A DNA stretch of 64,000 nucleotides from Ancylobacter crimeensis. Its GTDB lineage: Bacteria > Pseudomonadota > Alphaproteobacteria > Rhizobiales > Xanthobacteraceae. A model generated the notes under the pieces. That model was given only the letters and a program-made list of their open reading frames with translations. It made no database searches and had not been told where the DNA came from. The translations under genes and the position numbers were made by a program. The stretch's first letter is position 1, and each line of letters opens with the position of its first letter. Location: positions 248,001 to 312,000 of the forward strand of contig NZ_JALKCH010000001.1 of assembly GCF_023016805.1 (NCBI RefSeq). The letters run 5' to 3'. Of this stretch, positions 8,935 to 32,661 are shown in pieces.

Positions 8935-9112
8935 GCCAGAGCATCTGCGCAGCGGGCCGAGCGACGGTTGCGTCCTCCCGAACCGGGGCGCCCCGCCTAC
9001 GCCGCAGGGCGTGAGGACCCGCCTCCAGGCAACCGCGCACCCGCCCTCGCCCTCGCCTTCACCCGGTGCCGCGCGCCGGGCTCCTGATGGAGGCATGAGG
9101 GCAGCCGGCGGG

Positions 9113-9544
9113 CTACGCCTCTTCCTCGATCGCGATCTGGGCGATCTGCGCGGCGCCGCCATTGAGATGCGAAGCGATCGCGTGGCCGAGCGCCACAGCC
9201 GCGATGCACAGCGCCACCGAGCCGCCGATATTCACCAGCGCCCGCAGCATCGCGCCGTTCCGCATCAGGTCCAACGTCTGAAGGCTGAAGGAGGAGAAGG
9301 TGGTGTAGCCTCCGCACAGCCCGATCATCACGAACAGGCGCAGATTCTCCGACACCGGAAAGCGCCCGGAGGCGAGGGTCAGCGTGCCGAACAGGCCGAT
9401 GATGAAGGAGCCGGTGACGTTGATGAGGATCGTGCCCCACGGCAGGTCGCGGCTGATGGGCGCTGCGAGCACCGAAACGGTGTAGCGCCCCAGCGTGCCG
9501 AGAGCCCCTCCGAGCATGACCAGAAGGCAGGTGGTAAACGACAT
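9113..9544 (-). CDS. crcB: fluoride ion exporter CrcB/Fluc
   Basis: A 143-residue membrane protein with four hydrophobic segments that forms a dual-topology fluoride channel. The conserved GGALGTLGRY near the N-terminus, the polar INVTGSFIIGLFG segment and the GLCGGYTTFSSFSLQ segment with the pore phenylalanines and the sodium-site threonine are all present. The ATG has GAGGAG five bases upstream. A fluoride riboswitch and a promoter lie directly upstream, so the gene is expected to be induced by fluoride. Confidence 0.95.
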   Translation of the reverse strand: MSFTTCLLVMLGGALGTLGRYTVSVLAAPISRDLPWGTILINVTGSFIIGLFGTLTLASGRFPVSENLRLFVMIGLCGGYTTFSSFSLQTLDLMRNGAMLRALVNIGGSVALCIAAVALGHAIASHLNGGAAQIAQIAIEEEA

Positions 9545-9663
9545 GAACGCTCCTCATGCTTGCGGACAGCCCGAAAGGTCGGGTCGCGGGTGGCGGACGC
9601 TGCCCGCCGGCACGAGGGGAGGTGAGGGCACGCTCCCGCCGGCCGGGCCGGGAAGGCCCGTTG

Positions 9664-9736
9664 CTGGCAGGAGTCATCAGCCCTTCGCGTCCCTGCGGGA
9701 CCCGTGGGCGGTTTCGGGGGGACCCCATCCCCATCG
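9664..9736 (-). ncRNA. fluoride riboswitch (crcB motif)
   Basis: On the minus strand, about 120 bases before crcB, the leader contains GATGGGGTC, then CGAAACCGCC, a small GC hairpin, and GGGCTGATGACTCCTGCC. These match the core of the fluoride-sensing crcB RNA: an initial GATG segment, an AAACNGCC segment that forms the pseudoknot, and the late CTGATGA segment pairing back. A GGGCC/GGCCC hairpin follows the aptamer and could be the expression platform. The identification rests on motif order and on crcB being the downstream gene. Confidence 0.85.
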
Positions 9737-9742
9737 TGGAGC

Positions 9743-9772
9743 AGCATAGGCGAGAGGGCGGTTTGGCCGCAA
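9743..9772 (-). promoter_or_regulatory. predicted promoter of the crcB riboswitch leader
   Basis: On the minus strand, TTGCGG (9772-9767) and TATGCT (9748-9743) are separated by 18 bases. Transcription would start close to 9736, which is the predicted 5' end of the fluoride riboswitch. That agreement is the main support. Confidence 0.5.
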
Positions 9773-9943
9773 TGCCCGGCGGCGAAAGCGAGGTGCCATC
9801 CCGGCCGAAATGGAAGGAAACGCGCGCCAGCGCGCCGGCATGAAGCCGCCCGACGCCGCGTGCGTGGCCCGCCTGCGCGGTGTTGTCGCGCGGGGTAACG
9901 CTCCGTTCACCCTAGTTCCGCCAACATGAAGCGGCATTGCTGC

Positions 9944-9971
9944 GTGACGTGCGCCGATATTTTGCTATGAC
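9944..9971 (+). promoter_or_regulatory. possible promoter for the aminotransferase-hom-glpX group
   Basis: GTGACG (9944-9949), 16 bases, then TATGAC (9966-9971), about 95 bases before the aminotransferase ATG. The match is moderate. The rest of the 9773-10064 interval shows no gene. Confidence 0.3.
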
Positions 9972-10064
9972 GCTCCGTTCCTGCACGTCCTCGCCAGAAG
10001 GACGGCAGCGAGGAACCCTTTCGCCATCATCCCCGATCTCGTCCCTGCGCTCGAGTCAAAGACC

Positions 10065-11282
10065 ATGACCGACTTCCACCGTATCCGCCGGCTGCCGCCC
10101 TACGTCTTCGAGCAGGTCAACCGCGTGAAGGCCGCCGCTCGCAACGCCGGCGCCGACATCGTGGACCTCGGCATGGGCAATCCCGACCTCGACGCCCCGG
10201 CCCATGTGGCGGAGAAGCTGAAGGAGACGATCGGCAAGCCGCGCACCGACCGCTACTCCGCCTCCAAGGGCATTCCCGGCCTGCGCCGCGCGCAGGCCGC
10301 CTATTACGAGCGCCGCTTCGGCGTGAAGCTCGACCCAGACAAGCATGTCGTCGCGACGCTGGGCTCGAAGGAAGGCTTCGCCAACATGGCGCAGGCCATC
10401 ACCGCGCCGGGCGACGTGATCCTGGTGCCGAACCCGTCCTACCCGATCCACGCCTTCGGCTTCCTGATGGCGGGCGCGGCGATCCGCTCGGTGCCCTGCG
10501 AGCCGGGGCCGGAGTTCTTCCACGCGCTTGAGCGCGCGGTCGCCCATTCGATTCCCTCGCCGCTCGCCCTCGTGCTCTGCTACCCGTCCAATCCGACGGC
10601 GCAGGTGGCCGATCTCGATTTCTACCGCGACGTGGTCGCCTTCGCGAAGAAGCACGACCTGATCGTGCTCTCCGACCTCGCTTATTCCGAGGTCTATTTC
10701 GACGACAACCCGCCCCCCTCGGTGCTGCAGGTGCCGGGCGCGATGGACGTGACGGTGGAGTTCACCTCCATGTCCAAGACCTTCTCCATGGCCGGCTGGC
10801 GCATGGGCTTCGCGGTCGGCAATGAGCGCCTGATCGCCGCGCTGGGCCGGGTGAAGTCCTATCTCGACTACGGCGCGTACACCCCGATCCAGGTCGCCGC
10901 CACCGCCGCTCTCAACGGCCCGCAGGACTGCATCGCCGAGATGCGGGCTGTGTACAAGAAGCGCCGCGACGTGCTGGTGGACAGCTTCGGCAAGGCCGGC
11001 TTCGACATACCGGTGCCGAACGCCTCGATGTTCGCCTGGGCGCCGATCCCCGAGAAGTTCCGCGATCTCGGCAGCGTCGAATTCGCCAAGCTGCTGATCG
11101 AGAAGGCGGAGGTGGCGGTGGCCCCCGGCGTCGGCTTCGGCGAGCATGGCGACGGCTATGTGCGCATCGCCATGGTGGAGAACGAGCAGCGTATTCGACA
11201 GGCTGCGCGCAACATCCGCCGGTTCCTTGAAACGGGGGCGGAAACGTTGCACAACGTGGTTCCCCTCGCCGCGGCGCGCTGA
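10065..11282 (+). CDS. alaC: class I/II PLP aminotransferase, AlaC-like
   Basis: A 405-residue fold-type I aminotransferase. The internal aldimine lysine is in SMSKTFSMAGWRMGF, the PLP-binding region is seen in LGSKEGFANM and CYPSNPTAQV, and the substrate-side arginine is in VRIAMVENEQRI. The sequence resembles AlaC (glutamate-pyruvate transaminase) and related LL-diaminopimelate aminotransferase-like enzymes. The gene is followed 56 bp later by hom and then glpX, an order familiar from Hyphomicrobiales, which suggests a role in amino-acid synthesis. The exact amino donor and acceptor cannot be read from the sequence. Confidence 0.85.
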   Translation: MTDFHRIRRLPPYVFEQVNRVKAAARNAGADIVDLGMGNPDLDAPAHVAEKLKETIGKPRTDRYSASKGIPGLRRAQAAYYERRFGVKLDPDKHVVATLGSKEGFANMAQAITAPGDVILVPNPSYPIHAFGFLMAGAAIRSVPCEPGPEFFHALERAVAHSIPSPLALVLCYPSNPTAQVADLDFYRDVVAFAKKHDLIVLSDLAYSEVYFDDNPPPSVLQVPGAMDVTVEFTSMSKTFSMAGWRMGFAVGNERLIAALGRVKSYLDYGAYTPIQVAATAALNGPQDCIAEMRAVYKKRRDVLVDSFGKAGFDIPVPNASMFAWAPIPEKFRDLGSVEFAKLLIEKAEVAVAPGVGFGEHGDGYVRIAMVENEQRIRQAARNIRRFLETGAETLHNVVPLAAAR

Positions 11283-11338
11283 CGTTCGGACCTTCCGGAC
11301 AGCGCCGCTCCTTCAAGCTGTTGCGTCCGGAAGTTCAT

Positions 11339-12658
11339 ATGGCGTCGCCCCTCAGGATTGGCTTGGCCGGCCTCGGCACGGTCGGGAGCGGGGTCGTTCG
11401 CATGCTTGCCCGCCGCCGCGACGGATTAGCGGCCGCGACCGGCCGTGCCGTCGAGGTGGTGGCGGTGAGTGCGCGCGACCGCAACCGTCCCCGCGACTGC
11501 GATCTCTCCTCCGTCCGCTGGTTCGACGATCCGGTCGCGCTGGCGAAAGATCCCGACATCGACGTGTTCGTCGAACTGATCGGCGGCCATGACGGCCCGG
11601 CTCGCGCCGCGGTGGAAGCCGCGCTCGGGGCCGGCACGCCGGTGGTGACCGCCAACAAGGCGCTGCTCGCCCATCACGGAATCGCGCTTGCCGCGGCCGC
11701 GGAAGCGTCCGGCGCCGGGCTCTATTTCGAGGCGGCGGTGGCCGGGGGAATACCCGTGGTCAAAACGCTGCGCGAGGCGCTGATCGGCAACGAGATCGAG
11801 CGCGTCTCCGGCATCCTCAACGGCACCTGCAACTTCATCCTCACCAAGATGCAGGACGAGGGCGTCTCCTTCGAGGCCGCGCTCGCCGAGGCGCAGGCGC
11901 TGGGCTATGCCGAGGCCGACCCGACCTTCGATGTCGACGGCTTCGACACCGCCCACAAGCTCGCCATCCTCGCCAGCCTCGCCTTCGGGCTCGCCCCGGA
12001 CCCGGAGGCGATCCACATCGAGGGCATCCGCTCGATCACGCTGGCCGATCTCAACGCGGCGGAAGAACTCGGCTACCGGGTGAAACTGCTGGGCGTCGCC
12101 CTGCGCACCGCGACCGGCGTCGAGCAGCGCGTGCACCCGACCATGGTGCCGAAGCACTGGCCCATCGCGCAGGTGTCCGGCGTCACCAATGCGGTGGCGG
12201 TGGACGGCGACGCGGTGGCGCTCACCCTCGTCGGCCCCGGCGCGGGCGGCGATGCCACGGCCTCGGCGGTGGTCGCGGATCTCGCCGACATCGCGGCCGG
12301 GCGCGGCGCGAAGCCCTTCGGCATCGCGGCGTCGGCGCTGCGTCCCGCCGAGCTGGTGGCGATCCAGGGCCATGAGGGCGGCTACTACATCCGTCTCGCC
12401 GTGGTGGACCGGCCGGGCAGCGCGGCGACCATCGCCCGCCACATGGCCGAGCAGAACATCTCGCTCGAATCCATCATGCAGCACCGTCGCGGCCGCCCCC
12501 ATGGCGGGGAGCGCGCCGATGCGGCGGCGGATCCGGCGCCGGTGGTGCTGATCACCTATGCCACGACGGAAGAGGCGGTGCGCCGGGCGATCGCCGCCAT
12601 CGAGGCGGACGGCGTCATCACGGCGCCGCCGCAGATGATTCGAATAGAGAAGGATTGA
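11339..12658 (+). CDS. hom: homoserine dehydrogenase
   Basis: Reduces aspartate semialdehyde to homoserine, the branch step to threonine and methionine. The 439-residue protein has an N-terminal NAD(P) motif GLAGLGTVGSGV, the conserved NKALLAHHG, the family signature SGILNGTCNFILTKM, and a C-terminal ACT domain (YYIRLAVVDRPGSAATIARH) that usually carries threonine feedback control. An in-frame TTG exists at 11321, but the ATG at 11339, with GGAAG before it, gives the usual MASPLRIGLAGLG opening. It lies between the aminotransferase and glpX, and its stop overlaps the glpX leader. Confidence 0.96.
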   Translation: MASPLRIGLAGLGTVGSGVVRMLARRRDGLAAATGRAVEVVAVSARDRNRPRDCDLSSVRWFDDPVALAKDPDIDVFVELIGGHDGPARAAVEAALGAGTPVVTANKALLAHHGIALAAAAEASGAGLYFEAAVAGGIPVVKTLREALIGNEIERVSGILNGTCNFILTKMQDEGVSFEAALAEAQALGYAEADPTFDVDGFDTAHKLAILASLAFGLAPDPEAIHIEGIRSITLADLNAAEELGYRVKLLGVALRTATGVEQRVHPTMVPKHWPIAQVSGVTNAVAVDGDAVALTLVGPGAGGDATASAVVADLADIAAGRGAKPFGIAASALRPAELVAIQGHEGGYYIRLAVVDRPGSAATIARHMAEQNISLESIMQHRRGRPHGGERADAAADPAPVVLITYATTEEAVRRAIAAIEADGVITAPPQMIRIEKD

Positions 12659-24315: not shown

Positions 24316-24606
24316 ATGGCACGACTGTTCTTTCGGCGGGGGCGCAGCGGCGAGGCGGCGCCCGACACAGCGCGCGAGATGGCCGAAAAGGCGCGCGTCC
24401 TGCTCGGCCTCGGCGAGGATTCCACGCTGTCCATCAGCGAAATCGCCTGCGGCGACCCGGCCTGCGGCGGCGCGGAAACGGTGGTGCTGATCATGCGCCC
24501 CGGCCGGCGGACCGAGGCCGCCAAGATCCTCAAGCCCCTCGCCACCGTGACCGACGCCGAGTTGCGCGAGGCGCTGTCTGTCTTTGGGGAAAGCCCTAAA
24601 GTCTAA
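24316..24606 (+). CDS. conserved small protein with CxxxxC motif
   Basis: A 96-residue protein opening MARLFFRRGRSGEAAPD, with GGGGA six bases before the ATG. Its core SISEIACGDPACGGAETVVL carries two cysteines, followed by IMRPGRRTEAAKILKPLATV. Similar Hyphomicrobiales proteins are sometimes labelled nitrate reductase, which the small size makes very unlikely. The stop codon lies within the candidate Irr box of the next operon. Confidence 0.75.
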   Translation: MARLFFRRGRSGEAAPDTAREMAEKARVLLGLGEDSTLSISEIACGDPACGGAETVVLIMRPGRRTEAAKILKPLATVTDAELREALSVFGESPKV

Positions 24607-24618
24607 AATCATTCTAAA
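24602..24618 (+). promoter_or_regulatory. candidate Irr box (iron-responsive operator)
   Basis: TCTAAAATCATTCTAAA matches the rhizobial Irr/ICE palindrome TTTAGAATNATTCTAAA at 15 of 17 positions, with a perfect right half. It lies about 180 bp before an imelysin operon. Possible promoter elements downstream are TTGACT (24646-24651) or TTGAGG (24670-24675) with TATGAA (24694-24699). Irr is a haem-sensing Fur-family regulator; iron or haem control of the operon is inferred. Confidence 0.55.
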
Positions 24619-24800
24619 CAATTAAATATTGTAATCGCTCTAATATTGACTATGAATGCCGCCAACCTATTGAGGACGGTACGTAATATCGAATATGAAA
24701 TAATTCCAATCTATTTCCACGTACTTGAGGCGGTATCTGCGAGGGCGTAGGACATGCTTCATCGAGGCGCCGCTGAGGGCGCCCCTGGGAGGTGATCCTG

Positions 24801-26093
24801 ATGCGAGCCCGTTCCATTTTCTCGGCGCCGCTGCTGGCGGCCTGCGCCATCGGCGCCCTCGTCGTGGCCGGCCCCGCCGCCGCCGATACCGCGCCCAAGC
24901 CGCGCGACATCCTCGTGAACTACGCCAACATCGCCCAGGCGATGTATGAGGACAGCGTCACCACCGCCAAGACCCTGCAGGTCGCGGTGAACGCGTTCCT
25001 CGCCGATCCCACCACCGAGAACATGGAAAAGGCCAAGGCTGCTTGGAAGGCGGCGCGCGTGGCCTACCAGCAGAGCGAAGGCTTCCGCTTTGGCAACAAG
25101 ATCGTCGATGCGTGGGAAGGCAAGGTCAACGCCTGGCCGCTCGACGAGGGGTTGATCGACTATGTCGACCGCGCAACCTATGGCGAGACCTCGGACGAGA
25201 ACCCGCTCTACACCGCCAATGTGATCGCCAACACCAAGATCCGCGTCGGCAAGAAAACGATCGACGCCACCAAAATCGACGCCAAGCTGCTGGAAAGCCT
25301 GCAGGAGGCCGGCGGCGTCGAGTCCAACGTTGCCACCGGCTATCATGCCATCGAGTTCCTGCTCTGGGGGCAGGGGCAGCGCAGCGGCGCCACCGGACCG
25401 GGCACGCGCCCCGTGACCGACTATGACCTGAAGAACTGCACCAACGCCAATTGCGACCGCCGCGCCGCCTATCTCAAGGCCGCCACCGACCTGCTGGTGT
25501 CGGACCTCGAGGACATGGCCGGCTATTGGGGCGAGAAGGGCAAGGCTCGCAAGGCGCTGCTGGCGAAGAAGGACAAGGAAGGCCTTTCGGTCATCCTTAC
25601 CGGCCTCGGCTCGCTTTCTTATGGCGAGCTCGCCGGCGAGCGCATGAAGCTCGGCCTGATGCTGCACGACCCCGAGGAGCAGCACGACTGCTTCTCCGAC
25701 AACACCCACAACTCGCATTACTATGACGAGCTGGGCATCAGCGAGATCTATCGCGGCAAGTTCACCCGCATCGACGGCACCGTCGTCGAGGGCCCGTCCA
25801 TCGCCGCCTATGCCAAGGCGCTGGCGCCGAAGCAGGCCGAGGAGGCCGATGCCAAGGTGGATGCCGCGCTCGCCGCGATCAAGGCGATCAAGGACGAAGC
25901 CGACAGCGGCAAGATGCTCTATGACAAGATGATTTCCGAGGGCAACACCGAGGGCAATCAGCTCATCCAGAGCGGCGTCGATGCGCTGGTCGCCCAGGCG
26001 CATGGCTTCGAGGGCGTCGTCGGCGCGCTGAAGCTGAAGATCAAGGTCGAAGGTTCGGACAGCCTTGACCACCCCGACAAGGTGAAGAAGTGA
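24801..26093 (+). CDS. imelysin-family periplasmic iron-uptake protein
   Basis: A 430-residue exported protein. Signal peptide at residues 1-29 (LLAACAIGALVVAGPAAADT). The rest is an M75/imelysin peptidase-like helical domain with the hallmark GxHxxE as GYHAIEFLLWGQG near residue 180, and a second conserved block HDPEEQHDCFSDNTHNSHYYD. Imelysins such as IrpA are iron-regulated periplasmic or surface proteins needed for iron uptake. The ATG has GGGAGG eight bases before it. It heads a five-gene run with the multicopper oxidase, di-haem protein, second imelysin and DUF1513 protein. Confidence 0.93.
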   Translation: MRARSIFSAPLLAACAIGALVVAGPAAADTAPKPRDILVNYANIAQAMYEDSVTTAKTLQVAVNAFLADPTTENMEKAKAAWKAARVAYQQSEGFRFGNKIVDAWEGKVNAWPLDEGLIDYVDRATYGETSDENPLYTANVIANTKIRVGKKTIDATKIDAKLLESLQEAGGVESNVATGYHAIEFLLWGQGQRSGATGPGTRPVTDYDLKNCTNANCDRRAAYLKAATDLLVSDLEDMAGYWGEKGKARKALLAKKDKEGLSVILTGLGSLSYGELAGERMKLGLMLHDPEEQHDCFSDNTHNSHYYDELGISEIYRGKFTRIDGTVVEGPSIAAYAKALAPKQAEEADAKVDAALAAIKAIKDEADSGKMLYDKMISEGNTEGNQLIQSGVDALVAQAHGFEGVVGALKLKIKVEGSDSLDHPDKVKK

Positions 26094-26104
26094 CGGCCGG
26101 CCGC

Positions 26105-26229
26105 CCCGGCCTCGCGGCGGGGGCGGCGGTTTTCGGCATGGCGGAGCGCGGCGACCGCGCGCCGTCGCCCGGCCTCGCGGCGGGATGGCGGTTATAGACA
26201 TGGCGGTGCGCGGCAACCGCGCGCCGCCG
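26105..26229 (+). repeat. tandem imperfect 62-63 bp direct repeat
   Basis: Copy one is 26105-26167 and copy two 26168-26229. Both begin CCCGGCCTCGCGGCGGG, share a central GCGGTT...CATGGCGG block and end in GCGCGG(C)...CCGCGCGCCG, which can form small GC hairpins. It fills the gap between the imelysin stop and the multicopper oxidase ribosome site. Confidence 0.75.
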
Positions 26230-26286
26230 CCCGGCACAGGGCCCGGCATGGCGCTGGACCGTGCCGACGTTCTTAGGAGAGGCGCG

Positions 26287-27816
26287 ATGAGCGCATCGCG
26301 TGACGATCGCAACTCCGCGCGCATCCCCCCGTCGACGGCAACCACCTCCCGCCCCAGCCGTCGCTCGGTGCTGGCGGGGGGCGCGTTCGTCCTCGCCGGG
26401 GGCCTGCTGCCGGGCCGCCTGGGCAGCGCGGCGGCGACACCCCTGCCGAAGGCCACCCGCGCGCTTGACCTGTCCTCGGGCTTCATGGATTTCCGCCTGC
26501 TCGGCCCCGACAAGCCGGCTTCGCGGATCAGCGTCTATGACGGCACCCCCTTCAAGACGATCCGCGCCAGGCGGGGCGAGGTGCTGGACATCACCTATCG
26601 CAACGGGATCGACGAAGGCACCACGGTTCACTGGCACGGCATCCGCATCCAGAACGCGTTCGACGGTATTCCGACGCTGACCCAGCCCCTGGTGCAGCCG
26701 GGCGGTACGTTCCGTTATCTGGTGCCGCTGGACGATCCCGGCACCTTCTTCTTCCATCCCCACTGCGACGAAACCGGCCAGACCGGAAAGGGCCTTGCCG
26801 GCGTGTTGCTGGTCGAGGATGAACGCGACCCGGCTTTCGATGCCGAGCACGTGCTGTGCCTCAAGGACTGGCGACTGGCTGACGACGGCAGCTTCCTCGC
26901 CATGTCGGAGCCGGCCGGCGCCTCCAAGGCGGGCACCTATGGCGCAACGCGCACGGTGAACGGCCAGCCCGTCGTGGAGCTGGAGGCGCCGGCCCATGGT
27001 GACGTGCGGCTGCGCATCCTCAATCTCGATTCGACGCGGGTGATGGATATCGGCGTCGACCATGGCGATGCCGCGCTCATCGCGGTGGACGGCCACGCCC
27101 TGCCGCCGATCCTGCTCGACAACCTGCCGGACGGGGTGTGGCGGATGGGGCCGGCGCAGCGCATCGACCTGCACATCCGCATGCCCGCCGCGGGCGGCAC
27201 GGTGCGCCTTGCCGACTATCGCCAGTCCAGCCTCTACACCTTCGCGACTCTCACCGCGACATCTGCCACGACACCTGCCGCGACGCCCGCCGCCCATGCG
27301 CCGCGCCCGTTCCGTCCGTTCGCCCTGCCGCGCCCGCAGGTGCCGCGCGCCGATCTCAAGCGGGCGACGCGGCTCTCCTTCCTGCTCCAGCAGGCGACGG
27401 ATGCGGCGGTGAAGGAAACCGCTCTGCCGCCGGACGATCCGCTCGCCAAGGCGCTGATCGACAGCCTGTGCGTAGGCTCGACCACTTACTGGGCGATCGG
27501 CCAGCAGTCCTGGCCCACCGGCACCCGCCGAAACCTGCCGCCGCCACTGGCGGAGATGACGACCGGCCGATCCTACCGGGTCAGCATCAACAACGGCTCG
27601 CGCTATCCGCACCCCGTCCACCTGCATGGCCATGTGTTCGAGGTCATCAATTCCTCGACCGGCCGCCTGCCACATCATTTCGCCGACACGGTGCTGGTGC
27701 AGCCGGACGAGATCGTGGAGATCGCCTTCGTCGCCGCGCCCGGCGACTGGGTGTTCCACTGCCACATCCTGGAGCACATGGAGGCGGGGATGATGGGCTA
27801 TTTCCGGGTCACGTGA
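26287..27816 (+). CDS. multicopper oxidase, Tat-exported
   Basis: A 509-residue periplasmic copper oxidase. A twin-arginine signal PSRRSVLAGGAFVLAGG is at residues 24-40. All four copper-ligand motifs are present: HWHG near 115, HPH near 157, HPVHLHGH near 441 and HCHILEHMEAGMM near 490. The type 1 copper axial methionine is in the last motif. The layout is that of a three-domain laccase/CueO-like enzyme, though no long Met-rich insert is seen. Fe(II) or Cu(I) oxidation coupled to the imelysins is a reasonable inference. The ATG follows TAGGAGAGG; its stop overlaps the next ATG by one base. Confidence 0.93.
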   Translation: MSASRDDRNSARIPPSTATTSRPSRRSVLAGGAFVLAGGLLPGRLGSAAATPLPKATRALDLSSGFMDFRLLGPDKPASRISVYDGTPFKTIRARRGEVLDITYRNGIDEGTTVHWHGIRIQNAFDGIPTLTQPLVQPGGTFRYLVPLDDPGTFFFHPHCDETGQTGKGLAGVLLVEDERDPAFDAEHVLCLKDWRLADDGSFLAMSEPAGASKAGTYGATRTVNGQPVVELEAPAHGDVRLRILNLDSTRVMDIGVDHGDAALIAVDGHALPPILLDNLPDGVWRMGPAQRIDLHIRMPAAGGTVRLADYRQSSLYTFATLTATSATTPAATPAAHAPRPFRPFALPRPQVPRADLKRATRLSFLLQQATDAAVKETALPPDDPLAKALIDSLCVGSTTYWAIGQQSWPTGTRRNLPPPLAEMTTGRSYRVSINNGSRYPHPVHLHGHVFEVINSSTGRLPHHFADTVLVQPDEIVEIAFVAAPGDWVFHCHILEHMEAGMMGYFRVT

Positions 27817-29075
27817 TGGCCAGACCGGTCACCGCCCCGCTGCGCCGACTCGCCCTTGCCGGCGCCGCCTGCCTGCTGCTCGCCGGCGGCGTCGCCGCGG
27901 CGCAGGATGGCGGGCTGGAGGCGGCCATCGGCAAGGCGCTGTTCCGTCGCGCCTGGGTGCCGGCGCCGAGCTCGACCCGCGCCAATGACGGGTTGGGACC
28001 GCTGTTCGACGCGCGCTCCTGCGCCGCCTGCCATCCCGGCGCCGGGGCGGGCGCCACCGCGATCGACGCGACCGGAACGCCGCAAGGGCTGGGCCTCGTG
28101 CTCACCCTGCTGCGCGCCGACGGTTCCGGCGATCCGGTCTATGGCCATCGCATGGAGACCATGACGCTGCCCGGCGTGCCGGCCGAGGGCGTGATCCATG
28201 TCGAGACCGGGCCGGAAGGGCGGCGCCTCGCCAGCATCGCCCAGCCCGGCTATGGCGCGCTCGATCCGGCCACCGGCATCTCGCTGCGCGCCGCGCCGGA
28301 TCTGCGCGGGCGGGCGGCGCTGGAACGGGTGAGCGACGCTACCATCCTCGCCATCGAGGCGGAGCAGGCGAAAGACGGCAAAGGCGTGCGCGGCCGCGCA
28401 CGCCGGCTTGCAACCCCGGAAGGGCGTTCCGCCATCGGCCGCTTCGGCTGGAAGGCCAGCCATTCGACGCTGGAGGGGCAGGCCTCGGAGGCATTCTCGC
28501 TCGATCTCGGCCTGTCGACCCCGATGAGGCTGGAGCCTTGGGGCGACTGCACGGTGGTCCAGACCGCCTGCCGCGCCGCCTATCAGGGCAATGACGCGGA
28601 AGGCGAGCCGGAAATCGCGCCGTCCATCGTGCAGGGCATCCTCGTCTATCTCCACAGCCTGAAGCCGCCGGAGCGCGAAGACGACGTGACGCCTGCCGGG
28701 CGCCGGGAGGCCGCCCGCGGGGTGAGGCTGTTCGCGTCCACCGGCTGCGCCATGTGCCACCGCCCGGAGCTTGCGACGACCGATGGCGGCCGGGCGCGGC
28801 TCTTCACCGACGTGCTGCTGCACGACATGGGCCCCGGCCTCGCCGATCCGGTCGCGCAGCCGGGAGCGGAGCCTTCGCAATGGCGCACGGCGCCGCTCGC
28901 CGGCCTCTCTGCCGCGCTGGAGCGCGGCACCGGGCTGCTGCATGACGGGCGCGCGTCGAGCGTTGCCGAGGCGCTGCACTGGCACCAGGGCGAGGCGGCC
29001 GGGGCGCGCGCACGTTTCGATGCGCTGAACGACGCCGACCGTCATATCCTGTTGAACTATGTCTCGTCGCTCTGA
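27816..29075 (+). CDS. di-haem c-type cytochrome oxidoreductase (DHOR/thiol oxidoreductase family)
   Basis: A 419-residue exported protein with signal peptide LALAGAACLLLAGGVAAAQD. Two haem c sites are visible, CAACH near residue 68 and CAMCH near residue 310, as expected for the DUF1111/di-haem oxidoreductase family. Supporting blocks are GRFGWKASHSTLEGQASEAF and LLHDMGPGLADP. The start codon overlaps the multicopper oxidase stop (TGATG), so the two are translationally coupled. In known iron clusters this family lies between two imelysins, as here. Confidence 0.93.
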   Translation: MARPVTAPLRRLALAGAACLLLAGGVAAAQDGGLEAAIGKALFRRAWVPAPSSTRANDGLGPLFDARSCAACHPGAGAGATAIDATGTPQGLGLVLTLLRADGSGDPVYGHRMETMTLPGVPAEGVIHVETGPEGRRLASIAQPGYGALDPATGISLRAAPDLRGRAALERVSDATILAIEAEQAKDGKGVRGRARRLATPEGRSAIGRFGWKASHSTLEGQASEAFSLDLGLSTPMRLEPWGDCTVVQTACRAAYQGNDAEGEPEIAPSIVQGILVYLHSLKPPEREDDVTPAGRREAARGVRLFASTGCAMCHRPELATTDGGRARLFTDVLLHDMGPGLADPVAQPGAEPSQWRTAPLAGLSAALERGTGLLHDGRASSVAEALHWHQGEAAGARARFDALNDADRHILLNYVSSL

Positions 29076-29090
29076 ACGGGGATCAATGCC

Positions 29091-30206
29091 ATGTTCCGCT
29101 CTCTGATCGCGCTTCTGGTCGCCATGGCGAGCCAGATCGGCCAAAGCCTGCCGGGCATGGCGGTGGTCGCGACCTTCGTGACGCAGGTGTTCTCCGGACG
29201 CGCCGAGGCCGCGCCGATCAAGGCGCCGGAGGTGGTCGAGAGCTGGCTGCTGCCGCGCTATGACGCCCTTGCCAGAGCGGCGAGGGCGCAGAAGGAAGCG
29301 TGGGAGGCTTTCTGCACCAAGCCTTCGGCTGAAGGCGTCGCCAGCCTGAGGGAGGCGTTCGGCACCGCTTCGGATGCGTGGGTCGCGGTCGAGTTCGTGA
29401 GCTATGGCCAGATCGTGCTGCAATTGCGGGCCGACCGCTTCAACCTGTTCCCGGAGCGGCGCAACGCGGTGCAGCGCGCGCTCGCCGAATTGCTGGCCGA
29501 CACCAATGACGACCGGCTGTCGACGGAGCGCTTCCCCCGGCTCAGCGCCGCGGTGCAGGGACTGCCGGCGCTGGAGCGGCTGCTCTATGACGACGCCGCG
29601 GAGGCCGCGCTCGTCTCCGGACCAGAGGCGGCGCACCGCTGCGCCGTCGGGCGCGCCATCGCCGCCAATCTCGACGACATCGCCGCCGGCATCCGTGCCG
29701 GCTGGGGCGACCGAAATTCCGGCCTGCTCGGCCAGCTTATGGCCGGCAAGGAGGACGCGGTTTTCTTTCCCGATCCCAACGCGCTGCTCAGCCAGATGGT
29801 GACCGACCTCGCCGGCGCCTATCAGCGCGTCGTCGACCAGCGCCTGCTGGTGGTAATGGGCAAGAGCCAGGACGAGGCGAAGCCGCTGCTTTCCGACCGC
29901 CGCCGCAGCGGGCGCTCCAAGGCCACCATCGTCGCCGAGACAGCCAGCGCCGAAGCGCTCGCGACCGCGCTGGCGGCAGGGCTCGACGCCAAGTCGCAGG
30001 CCGTCGTCGACAAGGCGGTGAAGGCGGGCACCGACGCGGTGCAGCATCTGCCGGACGATATCGGCGCGGCGGCGCAGGATTCGAAGGGCCGCAAGCAGAT
30101 CACCGCCGCCATCGCCGCGCTGAAGGCGGCGCAGGCCACTGTCGCCGAACCGCTCGCCTCCGGCCTCGGCGTCCCGCTCGGCTTTAACGCGCTGGACGGC
30201 GACTGA
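29091..30206 (+). CDS. second imelysin-family protein with variant motif
   Basis: A 371-residue exported helical protein. The signal peptide is long and hydrophobic (SLIALLVAMASQIG through to SGRAEAAPI). The domain contains FGTASDAWVAVEFVSYGQI and the block RFPRLSAAVQGLPALERLLY, in which the usual GxHxxE motif reads GLPALE near residue 159, so the histidine is replaced. Such partner imelysins are common beside di-haem oxidoreductases. It starts 15 bp after the di-haem gene with GGGGAT upstream. The C-terminal 70 residues are Ala-rich helices. Confidence 0.88.
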   Translation: MFRSLIALLVAMASQIGQSLPGMAVVATFVTQVFSGRAEAAPIKAPEVVESWLLPRYDALARAARAQKEAWEAFCTKPSAEGVASLREAFGTASDAWVAVEFVSYGQIVLQLRADRFNLFPERRNAVQRALAELLADTNDDRLSTERFPRLSAAVQGLPALERLLYDDAAEAALVSGPEAAHRCAVGRAIAANLDDIAAGIRAGWGDRNSGLLGQLMAGKEDAVFFPDPNALLSQMVTDLAGAYQRVVDQRLLVVMGKSQDEAKPLLSDRRRSGRSKATIVAETASAEALATALAAGLDAKSQAVVDKAVKAGTDAVQHLPDDIGAAAQDSKGRKQITAAIAALKAAQATVAEPLASGLGVPLGFNALDGD

Positions 30207-30279
30207 GCTTCTGGACGCATACGCAACGGAACGTTTAACCCGGCCGGATCGCCGGCCGCTTGGCACAGAGGATGTGACG

Positions 30280-31413
30280 ATGGGTCTGTTCGACGCAAAG
30301 GCTTCGTCCCTGTTCTCCCGGCTGGAAGGGCTGGTGCGCGCGCCGCGCGTGCTGTTCGGCGCTGCTCATGCCTTGGATCACGCCGATGACGCTCCCGCCG
30401 GGCCTCTCGATGCGCAATGGCTGGCGAGTGCGGCGGTGGAGGGCGGTTTCGCACCCGTGGTGCTGTCGCCCGAGCGGCAATCGACGCCTGTCGGCCTCGC
30501 CGGCCAGCGCCTCCACTGGGTGGAACCGAGCCCGGACGGCCGCCATGCGGTGGCGGTGGCGCGGCGGCCCGGCACCATGGCGGTGATGTTCGACCGGCTC
30601 TCGGGCACGGTGGTCGAGGCGTTCGAGCCGGGGGAGGGGCGGGTGTTCTCCGGCCATGGCCGCTTCAGCGCCGATGCGCGCCGCTTCCTCGCGGTGGAGA
30701 TCGACCGGGTGACGGGCGTCGGCACGGTGACGCTGCGCGACGCGGCGGAGGGTTTCGCCATACGCGACGAATGGGCCTCGTCCGGCATCGGTCCGCATGA
30801 CCTTTTGGCCGATGGCGACCTGCTCGTCGTCGCCAATGGCGGGCTGGAGCCGGGCACCGAGGAGGCGCTGGGGGCGGAGGAGGCGGGGGCGAGCGTCGCT
30901 TTGCTCGACCGCGCCACGGGCGAAACGCGGGCCGTAGCCGAACTCCATCCCGACTTCGCCTCGCTCTCGCTTCGCCATCTCGCGGTGGCGCCCGACGGGC
31001 TTCTGGTGGTGGCGGCGCAGGATGTGCTGGCCGACGGGGTGGCACGCCCGCTGGTCCATGCGGTGGGGCGCGACGGTCAGCTGACGGCGTTCGATGCACC
31101 GGAGGCCGAATGGCGGGGCTTCCGCACCTATATCGGCTCGGTCGCCTTCGACCTGTCGGGCGACTACGTGGCCGCGGCCAGCCCGCGTGGCAACAGGGTG
31201 ACGTTGTGGCGGCGCGACGGACGCTTCCTCGGCTCCGTGCCGCTGGTCGATGGCTGCGGGCTGGCGCCGACCCGCAAGGCCGGCGAGTTTCTCGCCACCT
31301 CCGGTCTTGGCGAGACGGTGCTGATCGCGACCGATGGGATGAGCGTCGGCGTTGCGGCGCGCAAGGCCGGGGGCCCGCGCTTCGACAATCACGCCGCGCT
31401 GGTGGTGAACTGA
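30280..31413 (+). CDS. DUF1513 family protein
   Basis: A 377-residue protein matching the DUF1513 beta-propeller family: WVEPSPDGRHAVAVARRPGT, FSGHGRFSADARRFLAVE, SSGIGPHDLLADGDLLVVAN, SLSLRHLAVAPDG and the closing HAALVVN. Family members usually carry a Tat signal; this one begins MGLFDAKASSLFSRLEGLVR and shows neither twin arginine nor a hydrophobic core. The ATG has AGAGGA upstream, and no upstream codons supply a signal. It ends the iron operon, 73 bp after the second imelysin. Confidence 0.88.
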   Translation: MGLFDAKASSLFSRLEGLVRAPRVLFGAAHALDHADDAPAGPLDAQWLASAAVEGGFAPVVLSPERQSTPVGLAGQRLHWVEPSPDGRHAVAVARRPGTMAVMFDRLSGTVVEAFEPGEGRVFSGHGRFSADARRFLAVEIDRVTGVGTVTLRDAAEGFAIRDEWASSGIGPHDLLADGDLLVVANGGLEPGTEEALGAEEAGASVALLDRATGETRAVAELHPDFASLSLRHLAVAPDGLLVVAAQDVLADGVARPLVHAVGRDGQLTAFDAPEAEWRGFRTYIGSVAFDLSGDYVAAASPRGNRVTLWRRDGRFLGSVPLVDGCGLAPTRKAGEFLATSGLGETVLIATDGMSVGVAARKAGGPRFDNHAALVVN

Positions 31414-31494
31414 AAGGCTTTTCATTTCAGCCATGTGGGTTGATAAAACGTCGAAACCCTGTTCGACGCCCGAAACTCCGCTGCGTGACTGTGA

Positions 31495-32661
31495 ATGAAC
31501 CCGATCTTCGCCTCCCTGCCCACCACCATCTTCGAAACCATGTCCGGCCTCGCCCGCCAGCATGATGCGGTGAATCTGGGCCAGGGCTTCCCGGACGATC
31601 CCGGCCCGCAGGACGTGCGGGCAAAGGCCGCCGATGCGGTGCTCAACGGCTGGAACCAATATCCGCCGATGATGGGCCTGCCTGAACTGCGCGAGGCGGC
31701 GGCACGCCACTATGCGCACTGGCAGGGCCTCGATCTCGACCCGGCCCGCGAGGTGATGGTGACCTCCGGCGCCACCGAGGCACTGGCCGGTGCGCTGATG
31801 GCGCTGATCGCGCCGGGCGAAGAGGTGGTGCTGTTCCAGCCGCTCTACGACGCCTACCTGCCGCTGGTGCTGCGTGCCGGAGGCGTGCCGCGCTTCGTCA
31901 GCCTCACCCCGCCGCATTGGCGGCTCGACGAGGCGGCGCTGGCGGCCGCGTTCTCCCCGCGCACCCGTGTGGTCCTGTTCAACAACCCGCACAACCCGAC
32001 CGGCCGGGTGTTCGATGCGCAGGAGCTGGAGCTGCTGGCGCGCTTCTGCACCCGCTCGGGCGTGATCCTCGTCAGCGACGAGGTGTGGGAGCATGTGGTG
32101 TTCGACGGCGCCCGCCACATCAGCGCGCTCAGCCTGCCGGGGATGCGCGAGCGGGCGGTGAAGATCGGGTCGGCGGGCAAGATCTTCGGCATGACGGGGT
32201 GGAAGGTCGGCGTGGTCTGCGCGGCGCCGGAGATCATGGCGGCGCTGTCGCGCGCCCACCAGTTCCTCACCTTCACCACGCCGCCGGCGCTTCAAAGCGC
32301 GGTCGCCTATGGTCTGGGCAAGGAGGACGGCTGGTTCGACGCCATGCGGGCCGGGCTGCAGCGCTCGCGCGACCGGCTGGCGCAAGGGCTGGCGGGGCTC
32401 GGCCTGCCGACGCTGGCCTGTTCCGGCACCTATTTCCTGAACATGGACCTCGCCGCTCTCGGGGCGCCCATAGGGGATGCCGCCTTCTGCCGGGAACTGG
32501 TGGAGCGGCACGGCGTCGCAACCATTCCGGTCTCGGCCTTCTATGCGGAAAGTCCCGTCACCAGCGTGGTCCGGCTGTGCTTCGCCAAGCAGGATTCGAC
32601 GCTGGACGAGGCCCTCGGCAGGCTCGCCGCCGCCAGCCTGCACCGGCAGCCGGCGGCTTGA
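31495..32661 (+). CDS. PLP aminotransferase, methionine/kynurenine aminotransferase-like
   Basis: A 388-residue fold-type I aminotransferase opening MNPIFASLPTTIFETMSGLA, then VNLGQGFPDDPGPQ. The aldimine lysine is in GSAGKIFGMTGWKVG, the PLP-phosphate region in TSGATEALAGAL and NNPHNPTGRVF, and the conserved arginine in SVVRLCFAKQDS. The NLGQGFPD opening is typical of YbdL/kynurenine-oxoglutarate transaminase-like enzymes that also accept methionine. It stands between the iron operon and the urea operon, with 80 bp before it and a 200-bp regulatory gap after it. Confidence 0.88.
   Translation: MNPIFASLPTTIFETMSGLARQHDAVNLGQGFPDDPGPQDVRAKAADAVLNGWNQYPPMMGLPELREAAARHYAHWQGLDLDPAREVMVTSGATEALAGALMALIAPGEEVVLFQPLYDAYLPLVLRAGGVPRFVSLTPPHWRLDEAALAAAFSPRTRVVLFNNPHNPTGRVFDAQELELLARFCTRSGVILVSDEVWEHVVFDGARHISALSLPGMRERAVKIGSAGKIFGMTGWKVGVVCAAPEIMAALSRAHQFLTFTTPPALQSAVAYGLGKEDGWFDAMRAGLQRSRDRLAQGLAGLGLPTLACSGTYFLNMDLAALGAPIGDAAFCRELVERHGVATIPVSAFYAESPVTSVVRLCFAKQDSTLDEALGRLAAASLHRQPAA

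Follow-up and report, generated by a model that had tools for sequence, protein, structure and literature searches.

An imelysin gene cluster of Ancylobacter crimeensis and other Alphaproteobacteria in which a multicopper oxidase accompanies a short-form di-haem oxidoreductase

Genes for imelysins (M75 proteins) have been described together with genes for haem proteins. In the accessible part of Xu et al. 2011 (PMC3143127), PA4370-PA4373 is Fur-regulated, imelysins are linked to DUF1111 peroxidases and what imelysin clusters do biochemically is called poorly understood; words starting with "copper" or "oxidase" occur 0 times in that part. In Leptospira, lethal peroxide raised the expression of imelysin/peroxidase/imelysin genes, and iron limitation raised that of the two imelysins as well, according to the available sections of PMC7567364 and PMC8638851. 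For EfeUOB/EfeUOBM, paired copper and iron sites were proposed for the periplasmic parts in the accessible portion of PMC9174327, which is also our source for the background on Fet3p and cupredoxins. In PMC6120874, an imelysin and a multicopper oxidase (MCO) appear as distinct genes of a single regulon table. Here we analyzed a five-gene cluster of the soil-type bacterium Ancylobacter crimeensis located in a stretch of 64,000 nucleotides (contig NZ_JALKCH010000001.1, positions 248,001 to 312,000; hereafter the window). An MCO gene lies between a first imelysin gene (imelysin A) and a gene for a di-haem oxidoreductase (DHOR), which is followed by a second imelysin gene (imelysin B) and a DUF1513 gene. 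No description of this five-part form was found in the titles and abstract starts of the open-licence literature on imelysin, DUF1111 and DUF1513. Judged by trees and alignments, the MCO goes with a short form of the DHOR and is absent from the examined clusters with a long DHOR, an association that is new here.

Recurrence of the MCO in imelysin clusters

A first-pass annotation of the window had proposed counting the MCO across Hyphomicrobiales and regarded an isolated insertion in this strain as fatal to its reading. In the family sample (149 genomes), all 24 close MCO homologues (L004-L027) adjoined imelysin A. Of the 397 genomes of the order sample, 69 contained an MCO match (E <= 1e-80) and 203 contained imelysin A. 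As judged by comparing places by hand and checking on fetched loci, 43 of these MCOs adjoined imelysin A, 25 did not and G421 was left unassigned. By this hand count, the MCO stands beside imelysin A in 43 of the 203 imelysin-bearing genomes of the order. Imelysin A was detected in 67 of the 385 genomes of the class sample; leaving the window aside, 66 loci remained (L177-L242, chosen regardless of the MCO), and in six of these the MCO adjoined imelysin A (L193 duplicates L105). Among the named loci (L034-L113), which are the best 80 of 587, 34 contained the MCO, a share that is inflated because the query alignment was built on MCO-bearing clusters. Further loci were picked mainly because no strong MCO adjoined imelysin A (L162-L175) or because one did (L243-L251). 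The arrangement is far beyond chance because it was found in many genomes, and this recurrence rules out an isolated insertion of the MCO.

The MCO-bearing named loci included those from Ancylobacter, Bosea sp. 117, Xanthobacter, Aquabacter, Microvirga, Hyphomicrobium, Kaistia, Methylopila, Arenibaculum, Dongia and Magnetovibrio. The MCO was absent from the Mesorhizobium, Roseibium, Achromobacter, Azospirillum brasilense and gammaproteobacterial loci among the named 80.

Gene order and overlap were retained in loci from at least Hyphomicrobiales and Rhodospirillales. In the window, the MCO gene (26287-27816, + strand) and the DHOR gene (27816-29075, +) share one base within the TGATG at 27814-27818, as the first-pass annotation had recognized in describing a stop-start overlap. 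The DHOR start lay <= 20 bp from the MCO stop in 96 of 97 loci (duplicates included), with 48 cases of TGATG and 27 four-base overlaps, a count that favours short gaps because the start codon nearest to the MCO stop was taken. The sole exception was L062, in which a CCP gene lies between the two. The MCO is therefore well supported, from gene neighbourhoods, as a stable and long-standing member of the cluster that is tightly linked to the DHOR.

Association of the MCO with the short DHOR

The short DHOR, to which the window protein belongs, has no N-terminal arm, while this arm is nearly invariant in the aligned long form. Five marker columns of the arm were consensus-like in 45-46 of the 48 long rows and gapped in 45-50 of the 50 short rows. 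The haem-to-haem span was mostly shorter in the short form; forms were assigned from tree plus alignment, and a span threshold of 249 mis-sorts, in the larger tree described below, L219, L225, L230, L238, L240, L241 and L243.

In a first DHOR tree of 98 rows, the form changed once. The 48 long rows grouped together (SH-aLRT 99), all 43 MCO rows lay outside this group, and the MCO was found in none of the 48 long rows. A larger, unrooted tree of 164 rows, from which nine duplicate rows had been dropped, gave the same picture: none of the 102 rows of the long-form group had the MCO, and all 53 MCO rows fell elsewhere. All six class-sample MCO loci fitted the link to the short DHOR (five of them in the tree; L193 is the one identical to L105). 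The gammaproteobacterial DHORs of L058, L080, L086 and L094 fell in the long-form group. Rows without two CxxCH motifs in one frame (e.g. L099, L222) or without a usable DHOR match (e.g. L050, L073, L168, L221, L242, L253, L256) are off the tree. For L189 (G832), a second, armless DHOR (9065-10324, 35%), located after DUF1513 in a cluster already having a long DHOR, entered the tree instead of the long one; it formed a very long branch (2.13) basal to the long-form group, and it was counted as short by form.

A CCP/MauG-type gene in clusters lacking the MCO

Nine short DHOR rows had no MCO. In seven of them (L052, L063, L077, L093, L162, L163, L172) the cluster contained a CCP_MauG-type gene, compared with three of 102 long rows and one of 53 MCO rows (L062; the flanks of the close relatives L003-L023 span only ~1.5 kb, and a CCP farther out would be missed). 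These CCPs were recognized by their 60-64% identity to the L062 protein, and PF03150 was confirmed for L062, L163 and at the G282, G476 and G215 places. The opposition of MCO and CCP gave a Fisher p of 1.4e-7 without L189 and 5.7e-7 with it, values that ignore relatedness. The CCP gene was upstream and co-directional (L052, L063, L077, L172), upstream and divergent (L162, L163) or downstream and overlapping (L093), therefore suggesting separate recruitment. A genome-wide MCO search, which covered three of the seven (L162, L163, L172), gave no match (E <= 1e-15) in G282 (L162) and G476 (L163), and only distant matches of 29 and 34% identity in G215 (L172).

In L052, where the CCP adjoins imelysin A, an open reading frame (ORF) of 76 codons between imelysin A and DHOR matched the MCO N-terminus. 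Scored against MCOs only and without composition correction, it gave E values of 3e-7 to 3e-5; scored against all ORFs with the correction, it gave 3e-5 to 5e-3. Its best matches, L082, L062 and L065, are neighbours of L052 in the DHOR tree, and the MCO therefore seems to have decayed in place beside the CCP. Some related bacteria thus appear to have swapped the MCO for a haem peroxidase.

The MCO tree (111 rows) showed two changes of the cluster label. Nine relocated MCOs nested within the cluster clade, and five of them (L137=L142, L145, L028=L147, L148, L149) adjoined a same-strand ORF with two CxxCH motifs. These neighbours were cytochrome c by Pfam in all four that were scanned (L145 not among them). 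By comparison, a separate MCO clade of 11 members had no same-strand CxxCH ORF in the fetched stretches (0/11).

Five MCOs of this separate clade (L150, L151, L153, L154 and L155, group f24) adjoined a gene resembling the RNase D type by eye.

Properties of the encoded proteins

Pfam matches placed all five genes, which lie on the + strand, in the families given by the first-pass annotation. The MCO matched PF07731 (3e-31) and PF07732 (1.1e-27) and is the only Cu-oxidase_2 match in its genome. Its start at 26287 was picked by homology; the longest ORF begins at 26185. The motifs for the type 1, 2 and 3 copper ligands and a Tat-type RR signal, both claimed earlier, were seen in the alignment by eye, and a pattern count agreed. 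All four ligand patterns, including HCHxxxHxxxx[M/L], were present in 82 of 87 cluster MCOs; one pattern was missing in each of L026 (cut at a contig end), L027, L138, L139 and L140. The type 1 axial residue was Met in the window MCO and in 70 of the 86 cluster MCOs with a readable motif. The best NCBIfam models were CueO and CopA, with 104.4 of 525 and 131 of 478.95 bits, scores so far below the cut-offs that membership in either family was ruled out. No Met-rich insert was visible by eye in the MCO alignment. The structural model (pLDDT 86) matched best to bacterial MCO/laccase structures (6vow, TMt 0.94, 32% identity; also 2xu9 and 4f7k), and Fet3p (1zpu, 18% identity) was among the fold matches.

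The short DHOR has two CxxCH motifs and matched PF06537 (2e-38); the Pfam scan gave no PF03150 (CCP/MauG) match on it, and no strong sequence match was found in PDB. In Foldseek, its model (pLDDT 91) weakly matched BthA, a di-haem peroxidase (E 4.5e-3, probability 0.97), and one chain of hydrazine synthase (E 1.8e-4). The TM-scores were low, 0.27-0.41, with 0.40-0.41 for BthA.

Imelysin A (24801-26093, +; alternative GTG start at 24792) is an M75 protein (PF09375, 1e-83) with the GxHxxE motif and is presumed to be exported; its closest solved sequence is 7xrx, an insulin-cleaving metalloproteinase. All 220 examined ORFs of imelysin A, a number that includes duplicates, kept the His of this motif. 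In imelysin B (29091-30206, +; M75, PF09375, 8.1e-32) this His is replaced, giving GLPALE. PF09375 was the sole Pfam domain on both imelysins, with no fused cupredoxin domain. The DUF1513 protein (30274-31413, +; PF07433, 4.4e-77) has R-L in its N-terminus (30274-30400) at the place where 12 printed relatives have a Tat-type R-R by eye, and its export may therefore be altered.

Organization and neighbours of the cluster in the window

The first-pass annotation had placed the cluster at 24602..31413. The end was correct; position 24602 is within the final codons of an upstream ORF ending at 24606, and the first gene starts at 24801 or at the GTG of 24792. The AT-rich region between them (24607-24790, +) is presumed to be a promoter or regulatory region. 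A single transcript for the five genes is likely from their arrangement; we say only likely because imelysin A and the MCO are parted by a gap of 193 bp holding a GC-rich tandem repeat (26100-26235, +; unit of 62 bp, 2.2 copies). A simple scan found no + strand terminator-like site in this gap, the stretch had no further match in the same genome at E <= 1e-5 (40 of 238 candidates scored), and no Rfam family reached the gathering score in 24500-31600. The corresponding gap is short in several Ancylobacter relatives (e.g. L034, L035, L038), unlike the repeat-bearing gap of the window.

Downstream of DUF1513, a pyridoxal phosphate (PLP) aminotransferase is encoded at 31495-32661. It was also found in nine of nine near-relative loci (L034-L041, L043) at varying distance (~2.2 kb in L036), and in few clusters beyond the near relatives.

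Iron link and additional genes in related clusters

Of 153 loci, 16 had a Fur-like box upstream of imelysin A that matched at least 14 of the 19 consensus positions, compared with two of 765 random windows. Together with the literature (PMC3143127, PMC7567364, PMC8638851), this upholds the earlier statement that the imelysin/di-haem/imelysin/DUF1513 group is linked to iron. The MCO loci with such a box were L061, L062, L065 and L091. No convincing Fur box was found in the upstream region of the window, where the best match was 12/19 and was matched or beaten in 7 of 100 shuffles. An ICE-like match in the window (12/14; 0 of 100 shuffles as good) was not claimed, since its halves are direct and not inverted by eye. 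The block at 24696-24712 (T..AA...TTC.AA..T) was invariant in 10 of 10 aligned sequences, namely the window and nine near relatives. Three Fur-family matches were detected in the window's genome.

Uptake of iron (or copper-iron) by a joint machine, as proposed in the first-pass annotation, is a putative role of the cluster. No transporter is encoded among the five genes, and the genome (99.87% complete) gave 0 matches to an FTR1-family permease at E <= 0.001.

Between imelysin A and DHOR, a bacterioferritin gene was present in 22 of the 80 named loci, in one of them (L059) with an MCO; bacterioferritin and MCO also occur together in L173, outside the 80. The ferritin identity of this gene was obtained by Pfam, and the small ORF ahead of it is Bfd-like by eye only. 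The Mesorhizobium-type clusters (L068 at 11270-12029, L074, L165, L166 and others) have a Bfd-like ORF plus bacterioferritin between imelysin A and a long DHOR. Bacterioferritin is normally a cytoplasmic iron storage protein.

The same position holds an OprD porin (Pfam) in L058 (5030-6112) and, in L060 (11489-12781), a predicted outer-membrane protein that is porin-like by eye and had no Pfam match. In L062 (15136-15926), DHOR and imelysin B are separated by two small tandem ORFs that resemble glyoxalase genes by eye. Two consecutive imelysin B genes occur in L065 (13828-15908), and two also in L179. L168 (G296) encodes imelysin A, imelysin B and DUF1513 with no DHOR match.

Possible role of the MCO and alternative explanations

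The cluster architecture is well supported; the chemistry we infer. We read the locus, with a probability of about 0.45, as an alphaproteobacterial form of the known imelysin/di-haem/imelysin/DUF1513 iron cluster with a built-in electron sink for DHOR-linked Fe(II) oxidation, served by MCO and O2 or by CCP and H2O2. The imelysins, presumed from signals to be periplasmic, would bind Fe(II), and its electrons would pass to the haems of the DHOR. The short DHOR would hand them to the MCO, which would reduce O2 to water, or, in the CCP lineages, to the peroxidase, which would reduce H2O2. Overall, iron in the periplasm would be oxidised under control and held safely, with Fenton chemistry avoided, and uptake would follow by a transporter encoded elsewhere. 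In the nearest sub-variant, the MCO would oxidise Fe(II) directly with the DHOR as its partner. The "defined oxidation step" of the first-pass annotation is thus plausible, and is sharpened by the link of MCO and short DHOR and by the apparent exchange of MCO and peroxidase. A wider form of the proposal, which we hold as doubtful, would let MCO (with O2) and di-haem CCP (with H2O2) replace each other as terminal oxidants of a single iron-oxidising di-haem cytochrome in a modular periplasmic ferroxidase relay, where the long DHOR works alone and the armless short DHOR needs an external acceptor.

Several observations weigh against the electron sink. The link of MCO and short DHOR is close to one evolutionary event because the DHOR form changed once in the first tree, and support for the long-form group in the larger tree was only 84 (99 without L175). 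A tree-aware test of MCO versus CCP was not significant (p 0.125; 3-4 of 5 independent pairs as expected, none opposed). The idea of an exchange arose on earlier loci; the 66 class-sample loci then gave six agreeing MCO loci, the exception L224 and the case of L189, and added no further CCP case. In L224, the fetched 13.8 kb around the short DHOR contained neither partner; a CCP_MauG gene lies ~132 kb off on the same contig, and the genome has only a distant MCO match. The extra armless DHOR of L189 also has neither partner; an MCO (39%) is located ~23 kb from imelysin A. The CCP is not exclusive because MCO-bearing genomes (G000, G871 and G585, the window's included) also hold CCP_MauG genes elsewhere. 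Four of the nine relocated MCOs have no adjacent cytochrome, the Fur-like box was found in only four of the 44 MCO-bearing loci scanned, and the cluster contains no permease.

The MCO could instead be a cuprous oxidase that shields the cluster, oxidising Cu(I) so that imelysins and haem proteins are not mismetallated, its tie to the DHOR being one of co-expression only. As the sole Cu-oxidase_2 match in its genome it may have a general copper role, CopA and CueO were its best, though weak, NCBIfam matches, and CueO likewise has Met at the type 1 axial position. The scores far below the cut-offs and the lack of a visible Met-rich insert disagree with this, and a tie to one DHOR form, with a CCP where the MCO is missing, would not be expected of a copper detoxifier; we consider this explanation unlikely. 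The fold and sequence proximity to bacterial MCO/laccase structures would also suit a laccase-like enzyme acting on siderophores or phenolic iron ligands and co-regulated with iron genes. Such a role leaves both the overlap with the DHOR gene and the CCP in the absence of the MCO unexplained, and seems quite unlikely.

The resemblance of the DHOR model to BthA and to the hydrazine synthase chain, together with the MbnH-MbnP precedent for oxidative modification of a partner, would allow a DHOR acting like MauG or MbnH on the MCO or an imelysin, with the MCO as substrate or co-substrate and not as electron sink. This is improbable given the low TM-scores and the persistence of the DHOR in CCP lineages where the MCO is missing. 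We give least credence to passive linkage, in which an operon formed once was inherited vertically without functional coupling. Approximately one founding event does explain short DHOR plus MCO, and the pairwise distances for MCO, for DHOR and for imelysin A correlated with one another (0.80-0.83 over 53 loci), with a partial correlation of MCO and DHOR given imelysin A of only 0.38. However, order and overlap were kept across the orders named above, and loss or relocation of the MCO often comes with a CCP in the cluster or a cytochrome c beside the MCO.

The tie of the DHOR to an O2-reducing MCO, with a peroxidase seemingly replacing the latter, would turn a vague "redox-linked iron uptake" into a testable electron-transfer pair. 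The apparent swap from MCO to haem peroxidase hints at what the MCO/DHOR pair does. If the electron-sink reading is true, a copper demand would be added to iron handling in several alphaproteobacterial groups such as Ancylobacter, Xanthobacter, Microvirga, Hyphomicrobium and Kaistia.

Comparison with described systems

Presumably, DUF1513 corresponds to the fourth member of the PA4370-PA4373 operon. The PA4370-PA4373 and VC1264-VC1266 type resembles the window in having a GxHxxE imelysin, a DUF1111/DHOR protein, a GxxxxE imelysin and a link to Fur, as far as the accessible part of PMC3143127 describes it; it differs by having no MCO. Leptospira LIMLP_14170-14180 has a similar order of imelysin, cytochrome-c-domain "thiol peroxidase" and imelysin, with no MCO among the genes described in the available sections of PMC7567364 and PMC8638851.

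EfeUOB/EfeUOBM shares an M75 protein and the haem peroxidase theme with the window, following the accessible portion of PMC9174327. The window differs in having a PF06537 DHOR, where EfeUOB has a DyP peroxidase; EfeUOB membership was ruled out, since the genome of the window gave no match to the FTR1 permease and the two imelysins have no extra Pfam domain such as a cupredoxin fused to M75.

CueO has a Tat-type signal. The window MCO shares its fold and ligand motifs with CueO and CopA, yet scored far below both family cut-offs and has other genomic partners. Yeast Fet3p-Ftr1p resembles the window in using a multicopper oxidase in iron handling, and Fet3p was among the fold matches. The identity is low, no Ftr1 match was found, and the partner of the MCO in the window is a di-haem protein.

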